The notes under the pieces were generated by a model. The model saw nothing but the letters and a program-made list of their open reading frames with translations. It was not told the DNA's origin and ran no database searches. From contig NZ_CP031264.1 of assembly GCF_003258605.2 (NCBI RefSeq), positions 1,054,001 to 1,118,000 on the forward strand: a DNA stretch of 64,000 nt. The letters run 5' to 3'. Positions 3,371-26,405 of this stretch are shown here, piece by piece (the first letter of the stretch is position 1; every line of letters begins with the position of its first letter). The DNA comes from Peterkaempfera bronchialis (lineage in GTDB: Bacteria; Actinomycetota; Actinomycetes; Streptomycetales; Streptomycetaceae). The position numbers and the translations under genes were made by a program.

Positions 3371-4386
<1,016 letters not shown>

Positions 4387-4390
<4 letters not shown>

Positions 4391-5385: not shown

Positions 5386-5389
5386 GGTG

Positions 5390-6370
5390 TCAGCCCTCCC
5401 GCCGGGTGCGGGGATCGAGGAACATGTAGGCCAGGTCCGCCAGCAGGTTCGCGGCGAGGACCGAGAGCGTGATGATGAGGAAGATGCCCTGCATCAGCGG
5501 GTAGTCCTTGGCACCGACCGCCTGGAGCAGCACCAGGCCGATGCCGGGGTAGGAGAAGACCATCTCCACCAGCAGGGTGCCGCCGACGATGAAGCCCAGC
5601 GAGAGCGCAAAGCCGGAGATGGAGGGCAGCACGGCGTTGCGGGCCGCGTAGGAGAACATCACCCGCCGCTCGGAGAGGCCCTTGGCGTGGGCGACGGTGA
5701 CGTAGTCCTCGGAGGAGACGGTCACCATCATGTTGCGCATGGCGAGGATCCAGGTGGCCATGGCGCTGATCACGATGGTGATGCCGGGCAGCACGGAGTG
5801 GTAGACCGCGCTGGCCACGAAGTCGAAGGACATGCTGGGGACCAGCCCGTTGTCGAACCCCTGGGCGGCCGGGAAGACATGCCAGACACCGGCGAAGAGG
5901 GCGATGGCGATCAGGCCCAGCCAGAAGTACGGGATGGCGGAGAAGAAGGTCGCGACGGGCAGCAGGCTGTCCATCCAGGAGCCGCGCCGCCAGCCGGCGA
6001 AGACGCCGAGGGTGGTCCCGAGCAGAAAGCTGATCAGCGTGGTCGTGCCCACCAGGGCCAGGGTCCACGGCAGTTGCTGGCTGATGACCTCGGAGACCGG
6101 GGTGGGAAAGAAGGTGAAGGAGAGTCCCAGGTCGCCGTGGAGCAGGTTGGACCAGTACTCGATGTACTGCTGCCAGATGCTCTTGTGCTGGTCGAGCCCG
6201 AAGAGGATGTTGAGGGAGTCGATCGCCTTGGTGGAGAGCTGTCCCTGGAAGCGCGCGATCAGCGCCTGCACCGGGTCGCCCGGCATCAGGCGCGGGATGA
6301 TGAAGTTGAGGGTGATGGCGGCCCAGGCGGTGATGAGGTAGAAGGCGATCCGCCGCAGCAGGTACTTCAT
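5390..6370 (-). CDS. ABC importer permease, DppB/OppB type
   Basis: 326 residues from the ATG at 6370, which overlaps the upstream ATPase stop (ATGA). It begins with the classical M-K-Y-L-L-R-R-I first segment, a large periplasmic-side loop (about 35-100, with L-M-P-G-D-P), and then five membrane segments. The EAA loop reads [13 protein letters not shown]. It forms the heterodimeric channel with the DppC-type permease encoded directly downstream. The larger open frame that extends to 7114 upstream is antisense to nothing real; it only runs through the ATPase gene in another frame. Confidence 0.92.
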
Positions 6371-10654: not shown

Positions 10655-12582
10655 TCAGGCGCCCGCCTGCATCTCCCCGAGCTGGGCGAGATAGCGCTCG
10701 GCGGCGCGCAGCTTGCGGCCGTCCGGGCCCGGTACGCGGCCGCGCAGCGCGATGATGGACGGCGCGATCCGCCGCGCCTCGGCGACGTCGTGGACCGCCC
10801 GCCAGCAGGCTTCGGCGTTGGAGGCCGCCTGGAGGGTCTCGGGGTGCTCGGGGCCGTGGGCGAGGAGCAGCTTCAGGGCGACATCCCGGTAGAGGTCGGC
10901 GGCCAGCGCCTGATGGCCGGCCAGCCGGGAGACATGGGCCCGTACCTGGCGTACATGCAGCGAGGGGGCGGCGGCGTCGCCGTGCATGGCGAACGCCTGC
11001 CGCTCCAGGACGGCGGCCAGGGCGACTGCGGTGGCGTGCTCCCCCGCGTCGGCGGCCTGGACGATCCGGCCGATGGGCTCGCGGTACTCGGCGAGGGCTG
11101 CGGCGGGGTCGGGGTCGGCGAGGGCTGCGGCGGGGTCGGCGGGGGTGGGGCGGGGGCGGGCTCGGCGGCGGGGGCTGCGGCGGGGGTGGGGGTGGGCTCG
11201 GCGGCGGGGGTGGATGCCGGGGCGGGCTCGGCCGTGGGGGCTCCGGTGGCGGGGCCTTGCGGAGGTGCACGGACGGGGGTTGGGCGGGTTGTGTGGGGAG
11301 GGAGGGCGCCGGTTTGTGCAGCGAGACCGGTGTGGTCACCGGGGCGGGGTCGCTCTTTTTCAGGGTCACGCCGGGCGTGGGCGGGAGGCGCTTGTCAAGC
11401 GAGACCGGCGGCTTGGTGGGGGCGGGGATCGAGGCGGGGTCCGGGTCCGGGGCGGAGGCGTGGGCCGGGTCGGAGGCCGAGGCCGGGCCGGAGGCGGGGA
11501 CCCGCACGGGCGCGGAGGGCGGCACGGGCCCGAGGATCGGGGCCGAGGACGGGTCGGAGGCGGGAGCGGAGGGCGGGGCGGAGGGCGGCACGGGCCCGAG
11601 GGCCGGGGCCGGGGCGGGAGTGGAGGGCGGCACGGGGGCGGCGGGGCCGGGGGCGGGGAGGGAGGGCGCGGAGGGCGGTGGAGCCCGTGGCGGTGGCGGC
11701 CCGGGGCGGCATGGCGGACATCGCCGTGGTGGTCACGGTCGTGGTCGTGGTGGTGGCCGCCGGCTCCGCGCGGCGCGCGGTGTTGCGGAAGACCGGCTGC
11801 CCCGGCCCATGCGAGGCCACCAGCAGGACATCGGGCCGCAGCACCGACTGCACCTGGTGCTGCAACTGCTCCGGCGACAGCGCCGCGCCCGCCCCCGGCT
11901 GGCCGCTGTGCAGCGCCTCCACCAGCGCCCGGGTGAAGATCCCGACGTGGTCGGGGTTCGGGCTGACCGCCGCCCACAGCGGCAGGCCCTCGGCCAGCGG
12001 TGACGGCACCGTGTGCAGCTGCGGCCAGACCATCTCGTCGGCGCTCAGGTCGGCGATCACCAGGGCGCCCCACTCCGCCGGACGCGCCCTCAGCTCGGCG
12101 GCGATCCACGGCCAGGGCAGCCCGTCGTGCCGCACCGAGGACGGCTTGGAGTCGCGCAGCGCCAGGTGCAGCCGACCGCCCCGCCGGTCGGCGATCACAT
12201 GCCCGGCAAGGTGGATCAGCACCGGCCCGGGATGCCGGGCGGCGGCCCGCAGATGGGCCAGTACCGTCTGCGGATCGGTGGCCGACGGGAGGTGGACGGC
12301 GTCGACGGCGTCGGCCGCGAGCAGCACCTGCGGGGAGACGGCGGCGAGGACCGCCGACAGGGCGGGCGCCCCCGAGGCGACCGCCTGCCGAGACCACGGC
12401 CAGCGGCCGGACGCCGCGAACCCGCCCTCCACCACCAGGATCCGGCCGCGCGGCGCCGCCGCCCGGGCCGGGTCGGTGACCGGTGGCAGTAGCGCGGTCT
12501 CCGCAGCCCGATCCGCCCGGCCCAGCGGGGACGGCACATGTGCTGTGGACTCCGACGTCGAGGTTGCCGAGCTCCCCGTCAC
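10655..12582 (-). CDS. Degenerate caspase/CHAT-fold-like protein with Pro-rich linker, apparent frameshifts
   Basis: Not one continuous frame. Frame A (12582 to about 11700) gives about 295 residues resembling a caspase-like fold: a central strand with H-L-A-G-H and a following strand L-V-I-A-D-L-S-A-D where an active enzyme would carry Cys. Frame B (about 11720 to 11200) encodes a Pro/Ala-rich linker with four V-[ST]-L-x-K motifs. Frame C (about 11160 to the TGA at 10655) gives a helical tail of about 165 residues with H-P-E-T-L-Q-A-A-S-N-A, like TPR-type tails. Frame changes fall inside GC-rich low-complexity DNA, so sequencing indels are as likely as true mutation. The start (GTG 12582) lacks a strong ribosome site. 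The N-terminal domain aligns with the product at 25569-26405. Function unknown. Confidence 0.6.
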
Positions 12583-12772
12583 CGCAGGTCACCGTCCTGT
12601 CCCGCTGCTGCCGCCGCGTCCGTCCGCTGCACGGCGCCGATCGCCGTCCCCGGTTGCGTCACTTTATGGCGTCGCCGGTTGATCGGCCATCCGGCGCCCC
12701 GCTGCGGCCGGGGTGGTGAACGTTTCTCCGATGCCATGCGTACGTAAAGAAGTGACGGAAGGTCAGCACCGG

Positions 12773-15700
12773 CTATGCCTGCTCCATCAGGTCGCGGAGC
12801 AGCGAGACGGTCTCCGGTTCGAGGTCGCGGGAGGCGTGGCGGCTGGTGGCGTCGAGCCGGTTGACCGCTTTCAGCAGTTGTTCGCGGGCGCCGGCGGAGG
12901 CGTAGATGTAGAGCAGGTCGCGGTGGAGGAGTTCGGCGTCGGGGGCGACCGCGAGGCCCCGGTATGCCGCCGCCTCGGCGCTGCGGAAGTCGCCGTGCTG
13001 GAGGCGGCGGGCGGCCAGTTCATGGGCGGTGTCCAGGACGGCGGCGACCATGTCCTGGCGGAAGGGCTCGGCCCAGCCGTACGCACCCCGGGGCACCTCG
13101 GCGAACGGGGCGCCGCGCACCAGGGCCAGGGCGTGTGCCAGCGCGGCGTCGGCGGCGGGGCTGGTGCTGCGCATACCGCGTCGGTAGAGGCTGCGGAAGT
13201 CGTCCCAGTCGCAGGTGACGGCCGGGGAGAAGGCATGCGCGCCGCTGCCGTCAGCGGGCAGGAAGGCCCTGCCCTCCGGGTCCTGGCCCAGCCAGTCGCG
13301 CAGCCGGTCCACGGCGGAGGCCAGTTCCCGGGCGGCGTGTTCGGCGGCCTCGGGGTCGCGGTGTACGGCGCCGGGGTGGAGGACCAGGTCGAGCGCCCGC
13401 TGGTCGCTGCCCGGGTTGAGGGCGAGGTAGGCGGCCGTCTCGGTGAGGCGGCCACCGGCGGCCGGGTCCAGCGGGCCGTGGGCGCCGAGCACGTCCACCG
13501 GGCCGAGCAGCCGCACCCGGGGGGCGGTGCGGACCGTGTGGGCGCGGGTCGAGCGCAGGATGGCCAGCAGGTCCTCGGCGTCGGTGCGGACGGGGCGGGA
13601 GGCGGCGGCGGGAGCCGGAGTCGGGGTCGGAGTCGGGGTCGGAGCGGGGACGGGGACGGGAGTGGGCTCCGGGGTCGCGGCGGGGGCGGCGTGGCCGTTG
13701 ACCCGCTGGACGGGCGTGCTCTCCCGGGGGTCGGATATGCGTGGGTCCGGCCGGGTCGGGGTGGCGGCCGTGCCACGTGCGGGGGTGACGGGGTCGACAC
13801 CGGCGAAGGCGCTGGTCCCGGTGGCGACCACGGGCCGGGCGGCCGGCAGGGCCGGGCGGACGGCGGCGGCACCGGCCCGGCCGAGGCCGTTGACATGGGC
13901 GGTCGCGGTGGCGGTGGCCGTCGCGGTCAGGGTGGCCGTCGCGGTGGCGGTGGCAGGGGCCGGGGCGGGGCTGTCGGCGCCCCGGTCGATCATCGGCCAC
14001 TGCTCGGGGTCGGGCTCCGGCCCCTCGACGGTCCAGGACGGTGCGGGGTACTGCTCATCGCTGCCCGAGGTGTGCATCAGCTCACCCCAGTAGCGGTACT
14101 GCTGGTCCGACAGCCGCTGGAGTTCGACGGTGAGGCCCAGCCCGGGGAGTGCCGTGGGCCCGGCGGTGGAGAGGGTCCACCGGGCGACCGGGCCGCTGCC
14201 GCGCCCCGGCGCCTGGGTCACCACGGCCACGCAGGTGCGGGGACGGGCGTCCAGCAGTCGGCCCAGCTCGGCGGGGGTGGCCCCCTCCGGGGGGTGGCCG
14301 CAGAGCACGATCTCCGGGGTCCAGGCGTCGTCGGCGCGGCCCCGGCTGCGGGCGTCGCGGGGGTGTGCGGCGCCGGCGGTGAGCAGTGCGGAGCGGGCGG
14401 TGGTGTCGCGCGCGGCGAGTTCGCCGAGTGCCGCCTCCAGGCTGCCGTGGCGGCGTACCCGCTCCGTCGCGCTCTCGGCGACGGGCAGGTCCGGGGCGAC
14501 GTCGACCAGGTGCATATGCAGCCGGTCGGCGAACGGGCTGTGGGCCAGTTCCAGCGCGAGGGCGCGCAGGACCGACCGCACGTCATCGGGGCTGCCGGCG
14601 AGGTGGAGCAGCCGTACCGCCTCCAGGTCCACCAGGACCGCGCCACCGTCCGGGGCCGAACCCAGGCCGACCAGGCCCGGGTAGGGCGCCGGGACGGCGG
14701 CGGCTTCGGCGGCGGGGAGCAGGTCGGGGGCGTCCGGGGGGCACCACCAGGAGGTGGAGGCATGGGCGGCCCGGAAGGGGGCGATCGGCGTGGCGGGGAC
14801 GGAGAGGTGGAGTTCGACCGTGTGGTCCGGGGTGATCCGGACGGCCGTGACGGCGGGCAGCCGCTTGGAGCCGCTGATCGCGTTGCGGGCCAGGGTGCGC
14901 AGGGCACGGTCGGCCAGGTCGAGTCCGGCGGCGTCCTGGCGGGCCCTCAGTTCGGCTTCGAAGGCGGCGACCGGGGGCGGCGGCAGGGCGATGCGGTGGC
15001 GGGGGCGGCGGCGCTGCTGCTGCCGGCCGCGCCGGGTGGCGACGGTACCGACCAGCAGGGCCGCGAGCAGCACGGTGACCCCGGAGGCCGTGAGGGCGGC
15101 GCTGTAGTCGCTGCTGGGGACGGCGGCGGACTGCTCGCCCCCGGCGGGCACCGGGGCGGAGTCGCTCTGCTGGGTGGGGAAGGGGGTGGCGGCGACCGGT
15201 GCCGAGTCGGCCGGAGGCGGGGTGGCCGGAGCGGAGGTGGCCGGGGCCGGACTGCTCGGGCGCGGCGGGGCGCTCGGGGGCGGCGTCGTCACGGGCACCG
15301 CTGTCACGGGCGGGGTGGTCGCCGGCGGGGTGGCGTGCTGCGCGCCGGGGATCTTCAGCACCATGCCCGGGGCGATGACGTTGGGGTCGGTGAGCCGTTC
15401 CCCGTCCGGCGCCCGCACCCCCTTGTTGGCGGCGTACAGCTCGGGCCAGGAGTCCGAGTCGCCCAGTTCGCGCTGCGCGATCTGCGACAGGGTGTCGCCC
15501 TGCCGGACGGTGACCGTCTCATGGTGGGTCTGGTGGTGCGGCCTGGGCTGGGCCTCATGGTGGGCGGCCGTGCCGTCGCCGTCCGGTGCGGCGTCCTGCG
15601 GCATCAGCAGCCGCCAGCCGGGGTGGATGGGCCGGTCGGCCTCGAACCGGCGGCCCTGGTCGTCCATCACCCGGCCGTCGTTGAGCCGGGCGATCTCCTG

Positions 15701-16354
15701 CCACCGCTCCCCGGAGCCGAGCTGCCGCTCGGCGATCGACCAGAGGCTGTCGGCGGGCCGGGCGTCGCGGACGGTGTAGACGGGCCGGTCCGCGGTGGGG
15801 GCCGCCGACACGGCGGCCCGGGGTGCGGGCGCGGCGGTCAGCGCGGCATGCTGCGGCGCGGCGGTGAGCGCCGCCGGGGCGTGGGCCGGGGTGGCGGCGA
15901 ACGCCCCTCCGGCGGCGGGCAGCACCGCGAGGACGGCGCCGACCAGCCCGGCGGCGGCGCGCTGGCTCCAGCCGAGGGTGGGGATGCGCCGGGCCACCCG
16001 GCCGCGCAGCTGCGCCGGTATCTCCACCAGGACGGAGAGCGCAAAGCAGAGCCAGGCCACCCAGCCGACCACCACCAGCGCCCACAGGAAGAGCCGGCCG
16101 TCGTCGGGTCGGGTGAGCAGGTCGAGGACGCCGCCGGTGGGCGTGCCCATGTCGGCGACGGCGCGTGTGCCGAGCAGCAGCAGCGCGGGTACGCCCGCCA
16201 GCAGCGCCGCCAGGACGACCAGCGCCCCCAGCGCTCCGGCGGCGGACCGGAGTCTCCCCCGGCGGCGGCCGGGTCCGCCCCGGCCGCGCGGGGGGACGGG
16301 TGCGGGCGCGCTGTGACGCGCCGGTCGGTGGACTTCCGCTCGTGGGGCGGTCAT
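12773..16354 (-). CDS. LysM-domain membrane protein with C-terminal BTAD (SARP-type) module
   Basis: 1193 residues. Three membrane segments near the N-terminus (about 38-62, 90-113, 131-152), then two LysM-like modules (about 195-255 and 282-340, the second with R-Q-G-D-T-L-S-Q-I-A and A-P-G-M-V-L-K-I-P), a Pro/Thr-rich stretch, a fourth segment (about 425-442), a long cytoplasmic middle, and from about 948 a winged-helix-like plus bacterial transcriptional activator domain with helical repeats (C-D-W-D-D-F to the end). LysM binds peptidoglycan or chitin-like glycans; BTAD belongs to SARP/AfsR regulators. Its start overlaps the TadG-like stop by one base (TGATG), so it is the last gene of the tad operon. 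A wall-sensing regulator or assembly scaffold is a reasonable guess. Confidence 0.85.
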   Translation of the reverse strand: MTAPRAEVHRPARHSAPAPVPPRGRGGPGRRRGRLRSAAGALGALVVLAALLAGVPALLLLGTRAVADMGTPTGGVLDLLTRPDDGRLFLWALVVVGWVAWLCFALSVLVEIPAQLRGRVARRIPTLGWSQRAAAGLVGAVLAVLPAAGGAFAATPAHAPAALTAAPQHAALTAAPAPRAAVSAAPTADRPVYTVRDARPADSLWSIAERQLGSGERWQEIARLNDGRVMDDQGRRFEADRPIHPGWRLLMPQDAAPDGDGTAAHHEAQPRPHHQTHHETVTVRQGDTLSQIAQRELGDSDSWPELYAANKGVRAPDGERLTDPNVIAPGMVLKIPGAQHATPPATTPPVTAVPVTTPPPSAPPRPSSPAPATSAPATPPPADSAPVAATPFPTQQSDSAPVPAGGEQSAAVPSSDYSAALTASGVTVLLAALLVGTVATRRGRQQQRRRPRHRIALPPPPVAAFEAELRARQDAAGLDLADRALRTLARNAISGSKRLPAVTAVRITPDHTVELHLSVPATPIAPFRAAHASTSWWCPPDAPDLLPAAEAAAVPAPYPGLVGLGSAPDGGAVLVDLEAVRLLHLAGSPDDVRSVLRALALELAHSPFADRLHMHLVDVAPDLPVAESATERVRRHGSLEAALGELAARDTTARSALLTAGAAHPRDARSRGRADDAWTPEIVLCGHPPEGATPAELGRLLDARPRTCVAVVTQAPGRGSGPVARWTLSTAGPTALPGLGLTVELQRLSDQQYRYWGELMHTSGSDEQYPAPSWTVEGPEPDPEQWPMIDRGADSPAPAPATATATATLTATATATATAHVNGLGRAGAAAVRPALPAARPVVATGTSAFAGVDPVTPARGTAATPTRPDPRISDPRESTPVQRVNGHAAPAATPEPTPVPVPAPTPTPTPTPAPAAASRPVRTDAEDLLAILRSTRAHTVRTAPRVRLLGPVDVLGAHGPLDPAAGGRLTETAAYLALNPGSDQRALDLVLHPGAVHRDPEAAEHAARELASAVDRLRDWLGQDPEGRAFLPADGSGAHAFSPAVTCDWDDFRSLYRRGMRSTSPAADAALAHALALVRGAPFAEVPRGAYGWAEPFRQDMVAAVLDTAHELAARRLQHGDFRSAEAAAYRGLAVAPDAELLHRDLLYIYASAGAREQLLKAVNRLDATSRHASRDLEPETVSLLRDLMEQA

Positions 16355-16788
16355 CAGCCCTGTTCCGCCTTTCGGACGCCGCGCACCAGGCTGGCCCTGC
16401 CCTCGCCGTGCACGGTCATGCTGCCGATACCGATCACGCCCAGCAGGGCGGTGTCGTACGTGCCGTCCACGGTGACGTGGATGGTCCTGCCGTCGGCCGC
16501 CACCACGGCGTTGCCGTGCACGCCGTTGGCCGCCAGGTACTGCTGCGCCGCCGACCGGGCGGCGGCGGGGTCGACCACCGGCGGTCCGCCGGAGAGCGCG
16601 GCGCCGGTGTCGAGCTGCTGCCCGGCCGCGCGGGCCGCCTCCTGGGCGAGGGCGTCGGCGTTCTCGATGGCGCGCAGCCGCCCGCCGCAGTCGATGACGA
16701 TGCCCACGACGGCCAGCAGGCCGACGGCGCAGATCGCCACGAAGACCGACACCGATCCGCGGTCCGACCGCGCCGCACTCCTCAGCAC
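16354..16788 (-). CDS. TadG-like pilus/secretion locus membrane protein
   Basis: 144 residues. Short basic N-terminus with D-R-G-S-V-S-V-F-V-A, one membrane segment (about 14-34) and an extracytoplasmic domain, the layout of TadE/TadG-like pseudopilins; I-D-C-G-G-R and the Ala-rich helix after it are typical of the Flp locus TadG N-domain. Much shorter than proteobacterial TadG because the von Willebrand domain is absent, as is usual in actinomycetes. 16 bp after the TadE/F-like gene and one base overlap with the LysM-BTAD gene. Confidence 0.8.
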   Translation of the reverse strand: MLRSAARSDRGSVSVFVAICAVGLLAVVGIVIDCGGRLRAIENADALAQEAARAAGQQLDTGAALSGGPPVVDPAAARSAAQQYLAANGVHGNAVVAADGRTIHVTVDGTYDTALLGVIGIGSMTVHGEGRASLVRGVRKAEQG

Positions 16789-16804
16789 TGCTCCGATCCC
16801 CTCC

Positions 16805-17242
16805 TCAGCGTCCTCGGTAGCGGTCCACGACCGAGGTGAACCGGCCGGTCATGGTCCGGGAGCCCGGCAGGCCGTTCAGCAGCAGGTCGTTCAGCGGCAC
16901 GGTGCACCGCACCACCGCCGTCACCTGGCCGGTCTCCCCCAGCGGCACGCTGAAGCGGCCGGTGTCGACCTCGACCCGGGTGGAGCCGCAGTGCACCCCC
17001 TGCTGCTTCAGCGTCTCCTCGGCCGCGCTGTGCGCGGCCTGCCGTGCGGTCTCCGCCGTACGGGCCAGCGAGGCGCTGCGCGCCGCCGCCCGGGCCGCCG
17101 CGTCGACGGTGCCGCCGGCCGTCTGGAGACGGCCGGCGGCGATGGCGAGCAGCACGAAGAGCAGCACGGCGGGCACGATGATGGCGGCCTCCAGGGCCAC
17201 GCTGCCCTCCTCGTGCCGGTCGCCGCCGTCGGCGCTGCTCAC
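16805..17242 (-). CDS. TadE-family pseudopilin-like protein (TadF-like)
   Basis: 145 residues from GTG 17242 with AGGAGG eight bases upstream; the start overlaps the preceding stop by 4 bp (GTGA). E-E-G-S-V-A-L-E-A-A-I-I-V-P-A-V is the TadE-like processing and hydrophobic segment (Glu five residues after the Gly), followed by one membrane helix and an extracytoplasmic domain with two Cys that may form a disulfide. TadE and TadF are minor pseudopilins needed for Flp pilus assembly. The open frame extends upstream through the neighbouring gene but without a start signal. Confidence 0.82.
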   Translation of the reverse strand: MSSADGGDRHEEGSVALEAAIIVPAVLLFVLLAIAAGRLQTAGGTVDAAARAAARSASLARTAETARQAAHSAAEETLKQQGVHCGSTRVEVDTGRFSVPLGETGQVTAVVRCTVPLNDLLLNGLPGSRTMTGRFTSVVDRYRGR

Positions 17243-17661
17243 GGTGTCGCCTCCTGGGGTACGAACCGCTCCCGGGGCGCGGTCACATGTTGGGTGATCA
17301 GCTGCCCGGACAGGCCGGGCAGCAGGGACTGGGCGCGTACGGTGACGCTGATCCGGATCTCGGTGTCGGTGCTGCCCGCCGCCGAGACCTGTGGGTCGGA
17401 GATCGCCGTACCGGCCCGGTCCAGGAACGTGCGCGCCCTGGCCGTGCCGTCGGCGGGCGCGGCGTTCAGCAGGCGGCCCGCCTCGGCGCCCTCCCGGGCG
17501 GCGGTGAGCGCCACCTGGCGGGCGTACCACCACAGCGAAGCCTGGACGACGAGCAGCACCATGGTCAGCACGACCGGGAAGACGATGGCCAGGCTGATGC
17601 TCATGGACCCGTCGTCCCGCCGGGCGGGCCGCCCGCGCCGTCGGAGGGCGGAGGGGGTCAC
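17239..17661 (-). CDS. TadE-like pseudopilin
   Basis: 140 residues; GTG at 17661 overlaps the stop of the pilin-like gene by 4 bp. R-R-D-D-G-S-M-S-I-S-L-A-I-V-F-P-V-V is the TadE prepilin-like stretch, followed by one membrane segment (about 21-42) and W-W-Y-A-R-Q-V-A-L-T-A-A-R-E-G-A-E-A-G-R, the conserved amphipathic helix of TadE proteins. The rest is an extracytoplasmic beta-rich domain. In other Tad systems such proteins are cleaved by the prepilin peptidase TadV/CpaA, which is not encoded in this window. Confidence 0.84.
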   Translation of the reverse strand: MTPSALRRRGRPARRDDGSMSISLAIVFPVVLTMVLLVVQASLWWYARQVALTAAREGAEAGRLLNAAPADGTARARTFLDRAGTAISDPQVSAAGSTDTEIRISVTVRAQSLLPGLSGQLITQHVTAPRERFVPQEATP

Positions 17662-17909
17662 TTGTCGGCGGGGATCTTCGCGGTCACATTGTCGGCGAGC
17701 GTGGTCAGCGCCAGCACCACGCCGCCCGCGACCGCGACCAGGGCGATGATGGCGAGCGCGAGTTCGATGCTGATGGCCCCGCGGTCGCCCTCGCGGACGG
17801 CCCGGCGGGTGCGGTCCACGCGGTGGCGGAGGAGGTGAACGCCCAGCAGCAGGGGCAGCAGCGCGGTCACGGCGGTCAGACCGCTGAGGTGCTTGAGATG
17901 GTGCTTCAT
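17658..17909 (-). CDS. Small Flp-pilin-like membrane protein
   Basis: 83 residues. A long basic leader (about 1-43, with an extra hydrophobic run at 9-24) precedes D-R-G-A-I-S-I-E-L-A-L-A-I-I-A-L-V-A-V, where Gly followed by Glu at mature position +5 and a hydrophobic helix match a class III/type IV prepilin site. The mature product would be about 40 residues, close to Flp pilins. It is located between tadC and tadE, where the Flp subunit gene is usual in actinomycete loci. Being the main pilus subunit is inferred; Flp's Glu-Tyr pair is Glu-Leu here. Confidence 0.78.
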   Translation of the reverse strand: MKHHLKHLSGLTAVTALLPLLLGVHLLRHRVDRTRRAVREGDRGAISIELALAIIALVAVAGGVVLALTTLADNVTAKIPADK

Positions 17910-17955
17910 GTGATGACTCCCGGTTCGGCAGGGGCTGCGGAGCGGCTGAGGGGGT

Positions 17956-18843
17956 TCAGCCGCTGTTGAGCATCTGGTACAGGGCGGGGAACGCGATCAG
18001 GGCGGTCATCAGCATCGTCAGCGCCGAGCCGGGGGCCACCATCCGCTCGCTGTCGGTGTTGGCCCGGGCCAGGTCCTCGGCGAGCAGTTCGGACCGCAGG
18101 GACTTGGCGCGGGCGCGCAGGGTGTCGTAGACGGCGGCGCCGTCGGTGCCGGAGATGCGCATGATGTCGGCGACGTCCTGGAGCGGGGTCAGGCCCAGTT
18201 CGGCGGCGAGCGCCTCCAGTCCGTCCCACGGGGGCAGCCGGTCGGTGGCAGCCCGGTCGAGGGCGTCGGAGAGCCGCCGGAAGACGGCGCCCCGGCCGAC
18301 GGCGGCCGCCCGGATCAGGGAGTCCGCCGGGCCGCAGTCGGCCGCCCGCTCCAGGGCGACCAGTTCCAGGTAGGAGGCGATGGCGTGCAGATACTCGACG
18401 CGCGCCTCCTTGGCCTCGCCGCGCACCACGCCGTCCGGTACCAGCCAGAGCAGCGCGGCCAGTACCGGTCCGGCGAGGGCGGGCAGGATCAACGGCAGGG
18501 CGACGTCCAGCATGGCCGCCAGCGCCCCCAGATAGGCGGGCAGCAGCAGCCCGAGCAGCGCGAAGAGCAGCTTGTGCACCATGAAACGCGCCGGGGTGCG
18601 GCCGATCAGGGACAGCTCGCGGTGCGGGATGCGCGCCCCGGGGAGGGTGGTGAGCCGTTCGCCCAGCCGGTCGTACCAGGCCGGTTGGGCGGTCGCCGCA
18701 CCCGGCCGGTCGCGCGCCGGGGTGCGGTGCAGCCGGTCCAGCGCGGGTCCGAGGTCGGGCGGCGCGGGGCGCAGCTCGGAGACCAGCAGGGCGACCCCGG
18801 CTGCGGCGCCGGCCCCGGCCAGCACGGCCCAGGGGGAGATCAT
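17956..18843 (-). CDS. TadC-type type II/IV secretion F-domain membrane protein
   Basis: 295 residues from ATG 18843, overlapping the TadB stop (ATGA). Membrane segments at the N-terminus, in the middle (about 95-140) and at the C-terminus, with a cytoplasmic T2SSF domain (about 145-265) containing E-L-V-A-L-E-R-A and the helical G-T-D-G-A-A-V-Y-D-T-L-R-A-R-A stretch typical of TadC. With TadB it forms the inner membrane platform that the ATPase TadA drives. 46 bp separate it from the pilin-like gene, the largest gap in this part of the operon. Confidence 0.88.
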   Translation of the reverse strand: MISPWAVLAGAGAAAGVALLVSELRPAPPDLGPALDRLHRTPARDRPGAATAQPAWYDRLGERLTTLPGARIPHRELSLIGRTPARFMVHKLLFALLGLLLPAYLGALAAMLDVALPLILPALAGPVLAALLWLVPDGVVRGEAKEARVEYLHAIASYLELVALERAADCGPADSLIRAAAVGRGAVFRRLSDALDRAATDRLPPWDGLEALAAELGLTPLQDVADIMRISGTDGAAVYDTLRARAKSLRSELLAEDLARANTDSERMVAPGSALTMLMTALIAFPALYQMLNSG

Positions 18844-19823
18844 CGCGACTCCTTGCCGGTCGTCAGCGGGGCGGCGGCCTCGGCCGGCTCGGACCCGGGC
18901 TCGGGCTCGGGGTCGGCGTCCGGCCGGGGGGCTCCGACGCGGCTGCGCCGGTCGGGCTCCAGCAGGCGGGGCAGCGGCGGGTGGGACGCCAGGTTGCGCA
19001 TCCAGAGGACGACGCCGATGAAGGCGACGGCCAGCACCGCCAGCACCAGCTGCCCGAGGGCGGTGCTGTAGGGGGCGGTGTAGTGGCGGTTGAAGGAACC
19101 GACCACCACCACGCCGAGGATGATGGTGACCAGCCAGCGCACGGTGGTGCGGTGCTTGGCCCGGTCGGCCTCGATGGCCCGGCGCTGCCGCACCTCCTCG
19201 CGTACCGACTCGGCCATGTCGGCGAGCGCCCGGGCGAGCCCCGGGCCCCGGTCGGAGGCCCGCAGCACCAGCGCGGCGAGCACCTTGTCGACGGTGGCGT
19301 CGCAGAGCTGGTCGGCGAAGGCGCGCAGCGCGTCCTCCGGCCGCCAGCGGGCCTGCAACCGGGAGGCCAGATCGGCGAGTTCGTCCTCCAGCAGCGCGGG
19401 CGCGGTACGGCGGCTGGTGACGATGGCCTGCTCCAGGCCGACGCCGAGCAGCAGCACATCGGCGAGGCGCTGGGTCCACTCGGCGAGCGCCTCCAGCTTC
19501 TCCACCCGGTGGGTGTGCGAGCGGGTGGTGTCGAAGAGCCAGGGGATGCCGAAGACCGCGACGGGGACCAGCAGCACGGTCAGCGGGACTCCGCTGAAGA
19601 GCCACATCAGCGGCCCACCGACGGCCGAGCCCGCGACCTGGATCCGGCGCAGGCGCAGGGTGCGCGGGTCGGCGGTGCCGGGGGCGCCGTACCAGAGGGT
19701 GCGCAGCCGCAGGGCGAGCGGGCTGGGGGCGGCGGCCTCGGGGCGGTCGCTGCCGATGAGCCCGGCGACCAGGCCGACCAGCCCGGCGGCCACCGCCGCT
19801 CCGCAGACGACATAGAGCAGCAT
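18840..19823 (-). CDS. TadB-type type II/IV secretion F-domain membrane protein
   Basis: 327 residues; ATG 19823 overlaps the TadA stop by one base. N-terminal membrane segments (about 4-24 and 62-95), a T2SSF domain (E-W-T-Q-R-L-A-D-V-L-L-L-G-V-G-L-E-Q-A-I at about 130-150), two membrane segments (about 247-300) and a 35-residue Pro/Glu-rich tail. Partner of TadC in the membrane platform. The tail is rich in D-P-E-P-E-P repeats and lacks an obvious fold. Confidence 0.88.
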   Translation of the reverse strand: MLLYVVCGAAVAAGLVGLVAGLIGSDRPEAAAPSPLALRLRTLWYGAPGTADPRTLRLRRIQVAGSAVGGPLMWLFSGVPLTVLLVPVAVFGIPWLFDTTRSHTHRVEKLEALAEWTQRLADVLLLGVGLEQAIVTSRRTAPALLEDELADLASRLQARWRPEDALRAFADQLCDATVDKVLAALVLRASDRGPGLARALADMAESVREEVRQRRAIEADRAKHRTTVRWLVTIILGVVVVGSFNRHYTAPYSTALGQLVLAVLAVAFIGVVLWMRNLASHPPLPRLLEPDRRSRVGAPRPDADPEPEPGSEPAEAAAPLTTGKESR

Positions 19824-21409
19824 CAGACCCGCCCTCCGATCCGCAGGTCCAGGGGTGCGCCCCAGGCGCCGTACGGGGATTGCAGCATCCGGGCGTCGAA
19901 GCCGACCCGGCGCAGGTCGTCCAGGCAGGAGGGCGGGGTGTGCGGGACGGCGCGGGGCTCGGCGTCGCGCGGGCCGAAGACGGTGTTCATGGCGGGCCGG
20001 CCGCTCTCGCCGAGCCCGACCACCTCCAGGACATGGGAGACGAAGCGGTGGCGGCGACCGCCGACGGCGGTCTCGTCGACCATCGCCACATGGACGACGA
20101 AGTCGACGGCGTTGGCGGTGAGCCGGTAGGCCAGGGTGTCGGTCATATGGGCGCCGTACTCCAGGCAGAGTTCGGCGATGCGGTCCACCACCATGTGCGG
20201 GCCACGGGCGTGCAGGGTGCACATGGAGCCGCCCTCGCCGTTGGTCATCACCCGCAGCATGGGGACGACCTCGGAGGAGCGGACCTCGCCGACGATGATC
20301 CGGGAGAGGGTCATCCGCAGGGCGGCGGGGATGAGTTCACCGATGGTCAGCTCGCCGGCGATGCGTCCGTCGACGCGTTCGCCGTTGCCCTCCCGGGCCT
20401 CCATGGGGACGACCTGGCGCAGGTGGCCGAGCGTGTGCAGCCACAGCTCGTACTCGCTCTCCAGGGTGCCCACCCGCTCGTCCGGCGGGATCTCCCCGGC
20501 CATGGCGCGCAGCAGGCTGGTCTTGCCGACGCCCTGGGTGCCGGTGATCATCACATTCTTGCGGGCCCGGATCGCGGCGGACAGGAACGCGGCCAGGGTG
20601 GTGTCCACGCTGCCCAGCCCGACCAGGTCGCGCAGGGTCGCGGAGGCCACCCGGTGGCGCCGGATCGCCACATACGGGCGGGGGGTGACCTCGGTCAGCG
20701 CCTGGAGGCGCATCCCGCCCTCCAGCCGCAGGGCGAGGGTGGGGCTGGCGGTGGAGAGGCTGCGCTCGCCGCCGCCGTGCTGGCGGGCCAGGTCCTGGAG
20801 GAGTTCGACCAGCTCGGTGTCGCTGTCGGCGACCGGGGGGACCTGGCGCAGCGGCTGGTGGACCCGGGACACCCAGACGTCGTCGCAGCCGTTGATGAGG
20901 ATGTTCTCGATCTCGGGGTCGTCCAGGTAGGGCTGGAGGCGGCCCGCGCGGAACAGCAGGTCGTAGACGGCCTCGGCGAGGGCGCGGTCCTGCTCGCGGG
21001 TGGGCGGCACGCCGTGCGCCTGGGCGTGGGCGTCCGACCAGCGGGCGACGGCCTCCTCGATCAGCGCCCGGCCGCGCTGGCGGCGGGTGGCGCCGTCCAC
21101 CCCGGGGGTGCGGGCCAGCTGCTCGTGCAGCTCGGCGGCGACCTGCCGCTTGAGTTCACGGGCGACCTGCGGGTCCACGGCGGGGGCGATGCCGTACCGG
21201 GCCGGGCCAACGCCGGGGCCCGGGCCTGGGCCTGGGCCTGGGCCTGGGCCTGGGCCGACCGGGGGCCTGACCAGGTCGGCGGGCAGCTGGGCGGCGGTGG
21301 CCGAGGCGGTGGGATGCGGCTGGGGGCCGCCGTAGGGGTGGCCGTTGACGGGTGGGATCGCCACCGGGAAGGCGTCGGCGGGGCGGCCGTGCAGGGGCTT
21401 ACCGCGCAC
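19823..21409 (-). CDS. TadA/CpaF-type secretion ATPase
   Basis: 528 residues from GTG 21409 with GGAGGAGG about seven bases upstream, overlapping the CpaE-like stop by 11 bp. After an unstructured N-terminus with a (Pro-Gly)n run (about 53-66), the CpaF fold covers about 100-480: Walker A G-T-Q-G-V-G-K-T-S, Walker B-like R-I-I-V-G-E-V-R, and the His-box region T-L-H-A-R. A hexameric cytoplasmic motor for Flp pilus assembly or Tad secretion. It is the best-conserved member of the locus. The open frame runs far upstream through the cpaE-like gene but has no credible start there. Confidence 0.93.
   Translation of the reverse strand: MRGKPLHGRPADAFPVAIPPVNGHPYGGPQPHPTASATAAQLPADLVRPPVGPGPGPGPGPGPGPGVGPARYGIAPAVDPQVARELKRQVAAELHEQLARTPGVDGATRRQRGRALIEEAVARWSDAHAQAHGVPPTREQDRALAEAVYDLLFRAGRLQPYLDDPEIENILINGCDDVWVSRVHQPLRQVPPVADSDTELVELLQDLARQHGGGERSLSTASPTLALRLEGGMRLQALTEVTPRPYVAIRRHRVASATLRDLVGLGSVDTTLAAFLSAAIRARKNVMITGTQGVGKTSLLRAMAGEIPPDERVGTLESEYELWLHTLGHLRQVVPMEAREGNGERVDGRIAGELTIGELIPAALRMTLSRIIVGEVRSSEVVPMLRVMTNGEGGSMCTLHARGPHMVVDRIAELCLEYGAHMTDTLAYRLTANAVDFVVHVAMVDETAVGGRRHRFVSHVLEVVGLGESGRPAMNTVFGPRDAEPRAVPHTPPSCLDDLRRVGFDARMLQSPYGAWGAPLDLRIGGRV
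21216..21256 (-). repeat. Hexanucleotide repeat GGGCCT in tadA, encoding Pro-Gly run
   Basis: About six tandem copies of a 6-bp unit, read on the coding strand as alternating Pro and Gly in the N-terminal linker of TadA. Copy number could vary by slippage without shifting the frame. Confidence 0.85.
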
Positions 21410-22982
21410 GGAGCACCTCCTCCCCCTGGTCGTTCCCGGTGGCGGGACCGACCGGGCCGGGGAACGGCGCGGGCGGCGCGGGCTGCGGAGCCGCCGGGCC
21501 GGGGAACGGTGGGCGTGGGGCAAATGGCTGCTGCTCGCCGCCGGTGTCGAACGCCCTTCCCGGAGGCGGCGGTTGAACACCCGGCACGGGAGCGGCAAAC
21601 GGGCCGGTGGAGGCGGGCGACGGCGGGCGCGGCGCAAACTGCTGCTGCTCGCCACCGAGGTCGAACGCCCTTCCCGGAGGCGGCGGTTGAACACCCGGCA
21701 CGGGAGCGGCAAACGGGCCGGTGGAGGCGGGCGACGGCGGGCGTGGGGCAAATGGCTGCTGCTCGCCACCGGGGGCGGGGGCCGCAACGGTGAAGGGGGC
21801 GAACGCCCCTCCTGGAGGTTGGGCACCCGGCACCGGAGCACCGAACTGACCAGCAGCAGCGGGCGACGGCGGGCGTGGGGCGAAGGGCTGCCGGTCGCCG
21901 GCGGCGGCGGGGACGGTGAAGGGGTCGAACGCCCGTCCCGGAGGCGGCGGTTGAACACCTGGCACGGGAGCGGCGAACGGGCCCGGTAACGGACCGGCGG
22001 CACCGGGGCCGGGCGAGGGCGCGGGCGTCCCCATGGGCCGACCGCCGGGATGCGGTGCCGGGAACGGTTCCGGGGCCGTGGCCGGGTACTGCGAGCCCGG
22101 GAAGGCGCCGGGCGCGGGCGGCTGCGGGGCGAGGCCGGCCAGGGGCGTGCCCGGCCCCGGGGCGGCGGCGCTCTGCGGTCCGCCCTCGGCCTGCGGGGCG
22201 AGCCGTACCCGCCGCCGCCCGACCAGCACGCGCACCTCGTCGGCGGCCGACCGGGCCGCCCGCATCAGCCCGGAGCGCACAAACCGCCGGTCGCTGCTCT
22301 CCCCGCCGTCGGAGAGCACCCGGGCGGTCCCCGGCGCATACGGCAGCAGCCCCAGCACGGGCACACCCAACTCGCGGGAGACATCGGCGGCCGGGTACGG
22401 CCCCTCCTGGATCAGCAGCATCCCCAGGGCGTCGGACCCGGTGCCGGAGCTGTCCAGGTCCTCCCGGAGCGCGGCCAGTCGCGGGCGGGCGGCGCTCAGT
22501 CCGCGCAGGGTGTTGCGTACGGTGACCAGCACGGCGTCGGCGCGGCGGACGAGGGCGGCGCTCGGCCCGTACGCGCCGGAGCGGCCGAGGTCGAGGATGA
22601 CGTCGTAGCCGTGCGGCTCCAGCGCGTGGAACGCCTCGATCAGCGGTTCCCAGGTGTAGGCGAGGCCGACCGCCTGGGCGGGGTCGGTGAGGCCGGGCAG
22701 CAGCAGGCGGTCGGCGGTGCCGCCGGGTGACAGGTCGACCAGCTGGTCCCACAGCTCCTCGGTGAGTCGGCCGCGCCGGTCGGCGACGGCCAGGTTGCGC
22801 AGCCCGTACACCGCCTCGATGCGGCCCTCCAGCGCGCCCGCGAGCACGGCGCCGCCGTCCGGGTCGCACTCGGCGAGCAGCACCCGGCGGCCCTCCGCCA
22901 GCGGCCAGGCGAACAGCAGGGCGAGGGCGGAGGTGGTCGCCCCGGGTGCGCCCGGGGTACCGGCTACCGCGATCACCGCCAT
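21399..22982 (-). CDS. CpaE/TadZ-like MinD-family ATPase with proline-rich repeat tail
   Basis: 527 residues. Residues about 1-270 form a ParA/MinD-like domain; the nucleotide motif reads A-G-T-P-G-A-P-G-A-T-T-S, i.e. the deviant Walker A without its lysines, and the switch-like D-V-I-L-D-L-G-R is present. CpaE/TadZ proteins position the Tad apparatus; many are poor ATPases. The remaining 250 residues are Pro/Gly/Ala-rich with the motif F-A-P-R-P-P-S-P repeated, encoded by 114-bp tandem copies (21521-21748 and partial flanks). ATG at 22982 overlaps the CpaB stop (TGATG). Confidence 0.85.
   Translation of the reverse strand: MAVIAVAGTPGAPGATTSALALLFAWPLAEGRRVLLAECDPDGGAVLAGALEGRIEAVYGLRNLAVADRRGRLTEELWDQLVDLSPGGTADRLLLPGLTDPAQAVGLAYTWEPLIEAFHALEPHGYDVILDLGRSGAYGPSAALVRRADAVLVTVRNTLRGLSAARPRLAALREDLDSSGTGSDALGMLLIQEGPYPAADVSRELGVPVLGLLPYAPGTARVLSDGGESSDRRFVRSGLMRAARSAADEVRVLVGRRRVRLAPQAEGGPQSAAAPGPGTPLAGLAPQPPAPGAFPGSQYPATAPEPFPAPHPGGRPMGTPAPSPGPGAAGPLPGPFAAPVPGVQPPPPGRAFDPFTVPAAAGDRQPFAPRPPSPAAAGQFGAPVPGAQPPGGAFAPFTVAAPAPGGEQQPFAPRPPSPASTGPFAAPVPGVQPPPPGRAFDLGGEQQQFAPRPPSPASTGPFAAPVPGVQPPPPGRAFDTGGEQQPFAPRPPFPGPAAPQPAPPAPFPGPVGPATGNDQGEEVLRAR
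21521..21748 (-). repeat. 114-bp tandem repeat in cpaE-like tail (two near-identical copies plus partial third)
   Basis: Copies start at 21521 and 21635, and a partial third at 21749. Each encodes 38 residues including V-P-G-V-Q-P-P-P-P-G-R-A-F-D and Q-Q-x-F-A-P-R-P-P. Further diverged copies continue to about 22000. A whole-codon unit keeps the frame open. Confidence 0.85.
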
Positions 22983-23719
22983 CAGCCGCCGCTCCTCTGC
23001 GAGGTGGAGGCGAGGATCACCTGGAATTTGCCGCCGGCCACGGTCTCGGCCAGCCGGGGCCCGTCCGCCTCGTCGACGGCCATGTCGACCACCACGGTGC
23101 CGTCGGTGTCGGCGCCGCCGACGGTGACCACGGTGGCGGTGAAGGTCTGGGACCGGGGCGCGGTGTCGCCGCCCTGGGTGGAGTCCGGGGTGGAGACCAC
23201 GATGACCTGCCGCCCGGGTTTGAGGGCGGTGGCGGGCAGTTGGGTGCGTTTGGCGGCGACGCCGACGATCTGCTGGCCGGGCCGCACGATCAGCTTGTCG
23301 ATGACATCGGCCTTGGTGAGCAGCGAGCCGCGCTTGAGGTCGTTGGTGGCGCGCATGCCCACCGCCCGGTCGAGGTCGGCGCCGTCCAGCGGGTGCAGTG
23401 CGGGGTCGCCGGCGATCCGGGCCACGGTGAGGTCGGCGGCGGTGAGCTGCTGTCCGGCGGGTACATCGCGGGCGAGGGCGAGCACGGCGACGCGTTCACC
23501 GGTGGCGCTGTAGAGGGCGGCGCCGCCCAGGCCGCCGGCGGCGATCAGCGCGACGGACAGGGCGAGCACGGCCGGACGCCGGCGGCGGGCGCGCAGCGCC
23601 CGGGGCGGTGCGACCGCGACCGGCCGGTCCAGCACGGCCCGTTCGGACGGCCGCCCGGGGTCGGCCGGGGTCGGCGGTGGCGGGGACGCCAGCTGCGACG
23701 GGAATGCCCTGTTCTCCAC
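22982..23719 (-). CDS. CpaB/RcpC-like SAF-domain pilus assembly protein
   Basis: 245 residues from GTG 23719 (AAGG about nine bases upstream). Pro-rich cytoplasmic N-terminus, one membrane segment (about 49-70), then an SAF domain (about 78-145: V-P-A-G-Q-Q-L-T-A-A-D-L-T and K-R-G-S-L-L-T) and an RcpC-like C-domain (Q-I-V-G-V-A and V-D-M-A-V-D). In gram-negative Tad systems CpaB links to the outer-membrane secretin; in actinomycetes its partner is unknown. A 91-bp gap separates it from the secreted protein gene. Confidence 0.85.
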   Translation of the reverse strand: MENRAFPSQLASPPPPTPADPGRPSERAVLDRPVAVAPPRALRARRRRPAVLALSVALIAAGGLGGAALYSATGERVAVLALARDVPAGQQLTAADLTVARIAGDPALHPLDGADLDRAVGMRATNDLKRGSLLTKADVIDKLIVRPGQQIVGVAAKRTQLPATALKPGRQVIVVSTPDSTQGGDTAPRSQTFTATVVTVGGADTDGTVVVDMAVDEADGPRLAETVAGGKFQVILASTSQRSGG

Positions 23720-23810
23720 CCGACTGTGCCTTCCATGCGTGGCGCCCGTGCCTGTCGGCCGGTGCGCGCGACGTGCGTTGGTGCGGAGCGGTGGTGCGGT
23801 GCAGCGCTGG

Positions 23811-24755
23811 TCAGTTGAGGACCTGTACCTCGGCGACGCGCAGCTGGAGCAGGTTGCTCTCGACGGTGTAGTCGTCGATGGGGTCGATCGGCCGCACCCC
23901 GCTGCCGTCGATGGTGGCCTCGATGTACCAGTGCAGGGTGGCGGTGACGGTGAACCGCTCGTCGGGCTGCCCGCCGGAGGACTTGGTGTAGCGGTAGCCG
24001 CAGTCGGGGGACCGGGCGCTGCCGTACGCGGCCTTGTACGGGGTACCGGGACCGTCGCAGTAGGTGGAGGCCGAGCTGTCCCCCATGTGCCACTCGACCC
24101 GCTTGAGGGTCGCCCTGGCGGTGACGGCGACCCCGCCCGCCCGTGCGGTCGCGCTGGGGTGGTCGAAGGTGCCCGGGTCGCGGTCGTACCAGAGCCAGAT
24201 CGGCAGGCCGACCAGCAGGGTGCCCTTCTCGCCGGGCGCGGTGTGCAGGGTCGGCGGGTGGAAGGGGATCTCCCTGACGGCCTGCGCGGCCAGTTCGGCC
24301 GGGCTCGGCGGGGGCGGTGCACCCGGAGCCGTGGCGGCCCAGAGCGGCTGGCCGCCGCCGAGGGTGCCGTCCACGTAGCAGAGGCGGTCGTACACGGCGC
24401 CGCCGTTCGCCGGGTCGTGGCCTAGCCAGGCCGGGTCGTCGGCCGGCGGCTGGGGGGTGGACTCCTTCCAGTAGCAGCCGTCGCTGCTGTTGAACCAGGC
24501 CCCGTCCCGGGTGCAGGGCACCTGCTCGCCGTTCCAGGAGCAGGTCTGCCCGCCGCCGGAGCCGCTGCCGCTGCCGCCGGAGGAACCGCTGCCGGGGGAG
24601 CCCGGGTCCTGGGCGACCACGCAGATCCCGTTGTTGTGGCACTCCTCCAGACCTCCGCCGCCGCCCGAGTCGGCGGCGGCCGGACCCGTGCCCGCGACCA
24701 GGGCGCCGAGGAGCAGCGCCGCACAGGCGGCGGTCCGCCGCGACGCCCTCAGCAT
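23811..24755 (-). CDS. Secreted protein of the tad locus, function unknown
   Basis: 314 residues. Signal peptide about 1-28 (A-A-C-A-A-L-L-L-G core, cleavage near A-A-A-D). A Gly/Ser-rich segment (about 52-68) follows a small Cys-bearing region; C-S-W-N-G-E-Q-V-P-C and the later D-C-G-Y-R-Y suggest disulfides. The C-terminal half (about 150-314) is beta-rich with W-L-W-Y-D-R-D, resembling conserved secreted ATP/GTP-binding-locus proteins found near streptomycete tad genes, but I cannot assign a family. The start overlaps the lipoprotein stop by 7 bp, so it is translated with the locus and may be a surface component. Confidence 0.82.
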   Translation of the reverse strand: MLRASRRTAACAALLLGALVAGTGPAAADSGGGGGLEECHNNGICVVAQDPGSPGSGSSGGSGSGSGGGQTCSWNGEQVPCTRDGAWFNSSDGCYWKESTPQPPADDPAWLGHDPANGGAVYDRLCYVDGTLGGGQPLWAATAPGAPPPPSPAELAAQAVREIPFHPPTLHTAPGEKGTLLVGLPIWLWYDRDPGTFDHPSATARAGGVAVTARATLKRVEWHMGDSSASTYCDGPGTPYKAAYGSARSPDCGYRYTKSSGGQPDERFTVTATLHWYIEATIDGSGVRPIDPIDDYTVESNLLQLRVAEVQVLN

Positions 24756-25435
24756 GTCCGCTCCGTCTCGGGCTTGAGCTCGGTGATCAGCCAGCCCTGG
24801 TCGGTGTGGCGGGCGGTGGCCGTCACCATGTACCGGCTGAGCCGCTGCTTCGGGTCCCTGATCTGCTTGGTACGCGCGTCGGCCTGGTGCCACTCCCGGA
24901 CGTCGAGGCAGTCCTCGACGGTCGCGGTCTGCGGGGTGGCGTCCAGGTCCAGTGCGACGACCCTCGCATCGCTGCGGGGGCGTCCCTGCATCACCATGCC
25001 GGCCTCCCGGAGGCGGTAGACGTTGGCCAGGGAGTCGCTGAGGGCCTGCCCGGTGGAGAAGAGGCCGATCCCGACGCCCGACTTGGAGGTGTTGGCGAAG
25101 GCCGTGATCCGGGCCTCCCACCAGCTGGTGTAGCGGGCCAGCACCTGATGGGCGGCGGCGCCCTTGGCGCCGCTGTCCGGTACGGCGGGCTGCGGCGGGC
25201 GCTGGGTCGTCTCGGCCGCCGATGGAGCGGCGGAGGTCTGCGGGCGGCTGCCGAGGCGGTCCACGGGGGAGCCGTCGGAGCCGGAGCCCGCACAGGCCGT
25301 CAGCAGCAGGGTGGCTGGAAGCAGCAGTGCCAGGAGTGCCGTCGGGGATGGCCGGAACCCGACTCCGCTCCCCCGCCCTCCTCCGGTCCGGCGGTCGGCC
25401 GCCGGAGGGCGTAACGCGTGCTCATGTCGTCGCAT
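24749..25435 (-). CDS. Lipoprotein at the head of the tad operon, function unknown
   Basis: 228 residues from ATG 25435, chosen because GAGGGGGG lies six bases upstream; an in-frame ATG at 25453 is possible. Residues about 27-51 form a lipoprotein signal with lipobox L-L-T-A-C. The mature part begins with a Ser/Pro-rich tether and continues with an alpha+beta domain of about 130 residues (L-A-R-Y-T-S-W-W, D-C-L-D-V-R-E-W, W-L-I-T-E-L), the look of an NTF2-like or Mce-associated-type accessory fold. First gene of the coupled tad set. Confidence 0.8.
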   Translation of the reverse strand: MRRHEHALRPPAADRRTGGGRGSGVGFRPSPTALLALLLPATLLLTACAGSGSDGSPVDRLGSRPQTSAAPSAAETTQRPPQPAVPDSGAKGAAAHQVLARYTSWWEARITAFANTSKSGVGIGLFSTGQALSDSLANVYRLREAGMVMQGRPRSDARVVALDLDATPQTATVEDCLDVREWHQADARTKQIRDPKQRLSRYMVTATARHTDQGWLITELKPETERTC

Positions 25436-25568
25436 GGGCCCCCCTCGCCGCATTCCGACCCACGTGTGCCAGTGGTCAGCAGAATATGCCTGTCGGACCG
25501 TCATGTCCGCTGTAGGGCCGAATCTTCGTCGTCCCGTCAGCTTCCGGCAATACCAAGGGTCACTGAGA

Positions 25569-26405
25569 CTACGCAGAGGGTGGGCGGCTTGGGGAGTCCT
25601 TCCGCCCGAGAACAGCAAGGAGTTCCCCGGAAAGCGGCATTCCGGACAGCTTGCCTCGCAGCGCAGCCGGATTGCGCAACAGGAGCCGCCCGCCTGCGGA
25701 CGGCACTACCATGCGCGCCCCCGTGCGCCCCTGTGCGCCCAGCTGTTCGCAGACCGCCGGGTGCAGATCCGCCGGGGAGACCGCCGCCGGAAGGCCCGGT
25801 ACGCCCTGCTGCACCAGCCGCACCACCGCCTCGGCGAACGAGCCGTCGCCGCCCGGCACCGTGGCACCGCGCCCCCGCCGACCCGGCACCCAGGGCGCCA
25901 CCCGGCCCCAGAGCGGAACCCGGGAGTGGTCCAGCAGTTCGGCCGGGCCGCCGCCCTCGCGGCCCAGCGCCTCCCACACCTCCCGGTCGACCACCGCGTC
26001 CACCAGCAGCAGCGTCTCGGCGTGCCCGCCGTGGACCATGGCGCTCACCACCCAGTCCCAGGCCAGCCCGCGCCGGTAGGCGTTCTCCCGGGTGCTGCCG
26101 GCGGTGACCAGCGCCAGCCGCCGCAGCCGGGGATCGGCGACCAGCCGTCCCAGCAGGCAGACCACCAGGAACCGGCCCTCGCGCCCGGCCGCCTCCTGAA
26201 CGGCCGTCAGCATGGTGTTGGCCTCCGCGTCCGGCGGCACCAGCACCGTACGGCCGGGTTCGGGGACCCCGTCGTACCAGGCCCCGGGCAGCGCCCCGGC
26301 CAGCAGTCCGGCACCCCGGCCGGCGTCTGCGGACCCCGCGAGGGCACGCTCGTTCCCGCACTCCGCACCTATCACGACCAGATCCGCTGCCAGGCTCCCG
26401 CCCAC
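25569..26405 (-). CDS. Degenerate caspase-like protein, paralogue of the product at 10655-12582
   Basis: 278 residues from GTG 26405 with GAGGAGGGG eight bases before it. Opens with A-D-L-V-V-I-G-A-E-C-G; central strand L-V-V-C-L-L-G-R-L-V-A-D; then H-G-G-H-A-E-T-L-L-L-V-D-A-V-V-D. By eye it aligns with few gaps over about 180 residues to the N-terminal part of the product at 10655-12582 (shared W-x-W-[IV], V-[AI]-D, E-x-W/V-W, P-L-W-x-x-V-[SA]-P, final R-N). In caspase/CHAT folds His and Cys would follow these strands; Cys is absent in both, so an inactive (pseudo-protease) domain is plausible. 133 bp upstream of the tad operon start, same strand. Confidence 0.72.
   Translation of the reverse strand: MGGSLAADLVVIGAECGNERALAGSADAGRGAGLLAGALPGAWYDGVPEPGRTVLVPPDAEANTMLTAVQEAAGREGRFLVVCLLGRLVADPRLRRLALVTAGSTRENAYRRGLAWDWVVSAMVHGGHAETLLLVDAVVDREVWEALGREGGGPAELLDHSRVPLWGRVAPWVPGRRGRGATVPGGDGSFAEAVVRLVQQGVPGLPAAVSPADLHPAVCEQLGAQGRTGARMVVPSAGGRLLLRNPAALRGKLSGMPLSGELLAVLGRKDSPSRPPSA

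Follow-up and report, generated by a model that had tools for sequence, protein, structure and literature searches.

Two genes encoding caspase-fold proteins that have lost the catalytic cysteine bracket the tad pilus operon of Peterkaempfera bronchialis, and this tad-bracketing pair of pseudo-caspases is real, well conserved and apparently undescribed. In the window, a 64,000-nt stretch of NZ_CP031264.1, the minus strand carries both genes, here termed A (the tail gene) and B (the head gene), together with the entire tad operon. We assign a probability of roughly 0.55 to the reading in which A and B are inactive caspase-fold proteins from an EACC1-type lineage that have become dedicated Tad accessory parts, working as adaptors or switches. 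It thus seems that a bacterial pilus has put a death-enzyme fold to new use. The bacterial caspase-fold pseudoenzymes known so far come chiefly from conflict systems and from phototrophs and related bacteria. Bacterial pseudo-caspases as such are not new, but the tad setting is unreported in the literature searched, in which no tad-linked caspase was found, in agreement with the first-pass annotation, where the pair was held not to be a described module. What emerges is a family of Streptomycetaceae pseudo-caspases that Pfam does not model and that has become fixed on either side of a pilus operon. Tad pili have been little studied in mycelial actinobacteria, and A and B become new candidate regulators for them; the role of dead bacterial caspases becomes testable in culturable Streptacidiphilus and Kitasatospora.

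In order of transcription, the locus begins with B (25569–26405), a single-domain pseudo-caspase of 278 aa whose C-terminal tail is conserved, followed by a probable lipoprotein (24749–25435), which is also the conserved first gene in tad loci without B, a SAF/CpaB-like tad protein (22982–24322, ORF limits, true start uncertain), a CpaE/TadZ-like ATPase (21399–22982, ORF limits), the TadA/CpaF secretion ATPase (T2SSE; 19823–22003, ORF limits), TadB (T2SSF; 18840–20222, ORF limits) and TadC, with T2SSF in its C-terminal part (17956–19605, ORF limits, true start later). The tail half comprises a small pilin-like protein (17658–17909), a putative Flp pilin judging by its prepilin-type site G|AISIE, then TadE (17239–17661), a TadG-like protein (16354–16788) and a membrane LysM protein with a BTAD domain (LysM-BTAD, 12773–16354), the last core gene before A. 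Twelve same-strand tad genes had been counted here at first; the shared strand holds, while the number is approximate, the genes recognised being those from the lipoprotein to LysM-BTAD. This core gene set and its order are those of actinobacterial Tad/Flp loci, from which the locus differs in that other sampled Streptomycetaceae tad loci lack caspase-fold genes. LysM-BTAD, with apparent membrane segments, recurs 3' of the pilin genes in most sampled Streptomycetaceae tad locus types, and no role for it is described in the literature searched.

B starts with GTG at 26405, preceded by a GGAGG-like site, and ends at 25569. A starts at 12582, and its open frame (11395–12582), which holds the N-terminal pseudo-caspase domain (11770–12450) and the start of a proline-rich linker, closes at 11395; the C-terminal TPR-like domain resumes in another frame (11122 to 10655). 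The gene at 10655–12582 is thus real, as annotated at first, but not uninterrupted, its frame being broken inside the proline-rich linker of the window copy. Over 110 residues, the TPR-like domain shares 88% identity with its counterpart in the nearest relative, whose A gene runs uninterrupted through 600 codons; in other genomes, too, A is encoded in long open frames. Since the relatives' frames are open, the break is either recent and true or an artefact of sequencing through a linker of very high GC content. Read by eye, neither A nor B has an apparent membrane segment.

The association of the pair with tad is conserved well beyond the window. In a scan of 200 sampled Streptomycetaceae genomes (E < 1e-30 for B orthologs, E < 1e-60 for A orthologs), B orthologs were present in 76 and A orthologs in 75, all within the 76 that carry B. 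A matching TadA was found in 76/76 B-bearing genomes; in each of the 69 where one contig holds all three genes, it is flanked by A and B, the genes of the remainder being split across contigs. Likewise, the 36 named genomes reached through A all carry B as well; they belong to Kitasatospora, Streptacidiphilus, records labelled Streptomyces and one labelled Saccharothrix, and the nearest relatives of the window are Peterkaempfera griseoplana and Streptacidiphilus sp. ASG 303. The linkage of A and B with the tad locus, and their co-occurrence with it, are conserved. The first-pass annotation had placed the two genes on either side of the operon and had staked its claim on their co-occurrence with tad loci in related genomes; both points are borne out, with B at the head and A at the tail.

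An unlikely alternative, albeit one with evidence in its favor, is that A and B are housekeeping pseudo-caspases whose position on either side of a vertically inherited tad cluster is incidental, and that do no work there. Vertical inheritance itself agrees with such a history, as does the looser placement of A, which lies at a median of 11.4 kb from TadA and up to 28 kb away; many Kitasatospora tolerate several kb of inserted genes between LysM-BTAD and A, and that A is not always beside the operon counts also against an adaptor role. The closest relatives of A are, furthermore, tad-free. These features have to be set against co-occurrence in 75 of 76 genomes and a bracketing that persists at deep divergence in several genera, with B identity falling to about 50%. 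B, moreover, lies shortly ahead of the first tad gene, at a median of 5.2 kb and never more than 6.3 kb from TadA, and four divergent tad loci, with TadA ~70% identical, retain a B-type head gene, A being undetected in them.

Other arrangements were seen. One genome (G016) has a single gene of the divergent head type, placed where A sits. At profile sensitivity and over the fetched stretches, no A or B relative was found within the locus in 18 other regions around more distant TadA, the one exception nearby being a genus with a stand-alone relative ~18 kb from the locus; in another genome (G012) the contig starts at TadA and the head of the locus lies outside the sequence. Additional tad loci or distant ones in several Streptomycetaceae genomes (for instance, those of G120, G139, G142 and G237) tend to lie close to the ends of replicons or on small contigs, and begin with a lipoprotein followed by a secreted-looking protein, with no pseudo-caspases. 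In a Kitasatospora strain, an intact caspase (DCCYSG) preceded by a small EACC1-like gene lies between LysM-BTAD and A (L152, about 3868–5637, matching the G015 region). An active caspase as a linked partner of A was considered on this account and set aside as coincidence, the arrangement being confined to a single strain and located within an insertion.

Several comparisons point to a common origin for the N-terminal domain of A and for B. A single BLASTP comparison aligned 194 residues of the two at 29% identity (E 4e-11), and the motif pairs originally matched by eye fall within this alignment; profiles built for each from its own orthologs agree (98.6% probability, E 1e-15, 211 columns). 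On these alignments the two are paralogs of shared descent, as first proposed. In a phylogenetic tree, A groups with a clade of pseudo-caspases with TPRs that is usually found away from tad and that elsewhere in the Streptomycetaceae, most sampled Streptomyces included, stands alone with no tad genes near. B forms a separate, tad-bound clade, which joins the divergent head genes with moderate support (84/71). A and B fall in different branches, so the tree gives no support to the pair having arisen by tandem duplication at the tad locus; instead, separate branches of a single family would have come to occupy its opposite ends. In a profile search of 346 genomes of the class, the family was seen in Streptomycetaceae only. 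A-like proteins without tad linkage occur in other genera, and their neighbors include none widely shared across genera and none that is tad-like in Streptomyces. Many sampled Streptomyces (e.g., L228–L236) carry a stand-alone pseudo-caspase, usually single-copy, that matches no Pfam caspase model and often ends in a TPR-like tail.

A caspase-type fold (clan CD) is supported for both proteins by predicted structures and by sequence profiles. The AlphaFold model of the A domain, computed from an alignment with 40 other rows, has a mean pLDDT of 87.7 and a pTM of 0.87; that of B, whose alignment shared A-family rows, is less confident (pLDDT 72.0). Among the Foldseek matches listed, all of those for A and all but one of those for B are caspases, paracaspases, metacaspases, legumains or GSU0716 (3bij, a bacterial structure). 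The best VIA-align match is metacaspase 4 for A (Z 14.6, 189 residues, rmsd 3.1) and MALT1 for B (Z 16.2, 195 residues, rmsd 3.3), and the fold matches also include the protease-like domain of c-FLIP (3h13, Z 13.5). Independent profiles concur: against five bacterial caspase-family sequences, four with the catalytic Cys and one with Arg in its place, the A-only profile scored 95.9% (E 5.6e-9) and the B-only profile 96.5% (E 1e-9), and an HMM from six caspases only (those five and one more) recovered 44 of 44 fetched A proteins. The NCBIfam model for the EACC1-associated caspase (NF047832) matched A with 54 bits (E 1.5e-14) and B with 27 bits (E 2.8e-6); since its curated membership cut-off is 140 bits, it represents, by sequence, the nearest named family, of which neither protein is a member. 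Pfam gave no match to A or B, PF00656 (Peptidase_C14) included; PHROGs and PADLOC scans yielded nothing useful, PADLOC having no match, and a profile search of PDB sequences returned chance matches only. The initial label had been caspase/CHAT-like. Its caspase half is upheld, the two models sharing the expected fold, and its CHAT half seems unneeded, with CHAT absent among the fold matches listed and an EACC1-associated caspase as the nearest family.

Alignment to the caspase motif GHG...DCC[YF]SG locates the catalytic positions. In A, the catalytic-His position holds His (His84 of the domain; 12199–12201) in 40/41 orthologs and Gln in the other, and the catalytic-Cys position holds Ser (Ser136; 12043–12045) in 40/41 and Thr in one. 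In B, the window copy carries Arg (26145–26147) and Val (25992–25994) at these positions, where 32/34 orthologs have Gln and two Arg, and 32/34 have Val and two Ala, respectively. The His-Cys dyad of an active caspase or orthocaspase is absent from both proteins, which are caspase p20 domains with a substituted dyad and, in the broad sense, pseudo-orthocaspases. The loss of Cys noted in the first-pass annotation is confirmed across dozens of orthologs; its treatment of the His calls for correction, because A keeps this residue (HLAGH) together with a conserved Ser at the place of the Cys.

The His-Ser pair of A, the other point counted against an adaptor role in that it may betray residual catalysis, bears on a distinctly improbable alternative, in which A would be an active serine-type caspase-like hydrolase (His84-Ser136) that cleaves or primes one of the Tad components, with B, itself dead, regulating it much as c-FLIP regulates caspase-8. 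The near-invariance of both residues in A orthologs would fit such an enzyme, given that both dyad positions are variable in tad-free relatives; so would the codon of the Ser, always AGC/AGT and one step from the Cys codons TGC/TGT, and the match to the c-FLIP protease-like domain. Yet the conserved pair, while suggestive of retained chemistry, is not significant by itself, because 68 of the 227 columns of A are equally conserved and chance alone would make two chosen positions both this invariant about 1 time in 10. Furthermore, A has lost the SG that follows the Cys of active bacterial caspases, and a Cys-to-Ser change usually inactivates caspases.

We give still less credence to a role in conflict, whereby A and B would act as decoys for, or dominant-negative partners of, the active EACC1-type caspases of the cell, stationed at the pilus as a structure through which phages enter or contact is made. 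The homology of A and B to the EACC1-associated caspase family fits this reading, the genome encodes two caspases above the NF047832 cut-off, one adjoining an EACC1 gene, and inactive caspase domains are common in bacterial conflict systems (PMC7159879). Against it, no EACC1 gene lies beside A or B, the only one over cut-off being elsewhere in the genome, PADLOC finds no match, and the pair is conserved lineage-wide with tad instead of being patchy. Least credible of all is a hetero-pair in which A, as a His-Ser hydrolase, and dead B tie the contact or assembly state of the pilus to a proteolytic signal, which, if true, would make the pair a bacterial counterpart of caspase-8:c-FLIP linked to a surface appendage.

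A non-proteolytic role, with the caspase-fold domains serving as peptide-binding or dimerising modules, seems the most likely. Under the accessory-part reading favored here, A and B would derive from actinobacterial caspases of the EACC1-associated type, would belong to a single lineage of Streptomycetaceae Tad loci and would serve as cytoplasmic adaptors or switches that do not catalyse. Their caspase-fold domains may bind one another or the peptide tails of Tad proteins, and the TPR domain of A, carried on the proline-rich linker, could dock on the cytoplasmic BTAD of LysM-BTAD, or on CpaE/TadA, such docking gating or placing pilus assembly. c-FLIP(L) is a catalytically dead caspase-8 paralog in animals, and A and B resemble it in fold and as dead caspase paralogs; no active partner is identified at the tad locus, however, and the parallel in function is by analogy only. 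Together with pseudo-orthocaspases and the inactive caspases of conflict systems, c-FLIP offers a precedent for a role of this kind (PMC6426788; PMC7159879). The EACC1-associated caspase (NF047832; 'System 4', PMC7159879) is likewise actinobacterial, shows caspase-core homology to A and B and, like A, places its caspase at the N-terminus, ahead of a variable C-terminal region. In contrast, A and B score far below its cut-off, have lost the Cys, lack an EACC1 partner and are fixed at a pilus locus. Bacterial pseudo-orthocaspases share the caspase p20 fold and a substituted His-Cys dyad, and their Phe-Ser variants carry C-terminal TPRs (PMC6426788). They are, however, mainly cyanobacterial and alphaproteobacterial and most often Tyr-Ser, that survey counting only 3 of 636 actinobacterial sequences (PMC6426788), whereas here the pairs are Gln-Val in B and His-Ser in A, with no Pfam caspase match.

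Two minor observations concern the genome and the window at large. Only one convincing prepilin peptidase (A24) is encoded in the genome, at a site distant from the tad operon (G000:C1:4306703, L220), and a similar protein is seemingly encoded inside the tad locus of G016; that A substitutes for a missing prepilin peptidase is not supported, one A24 peptidase gene being present elsewhere in the genome. Lastly, positions 60316–61983 of the window encode a DUF2398 protein whose N-terminus carries a DUF2397 piece.
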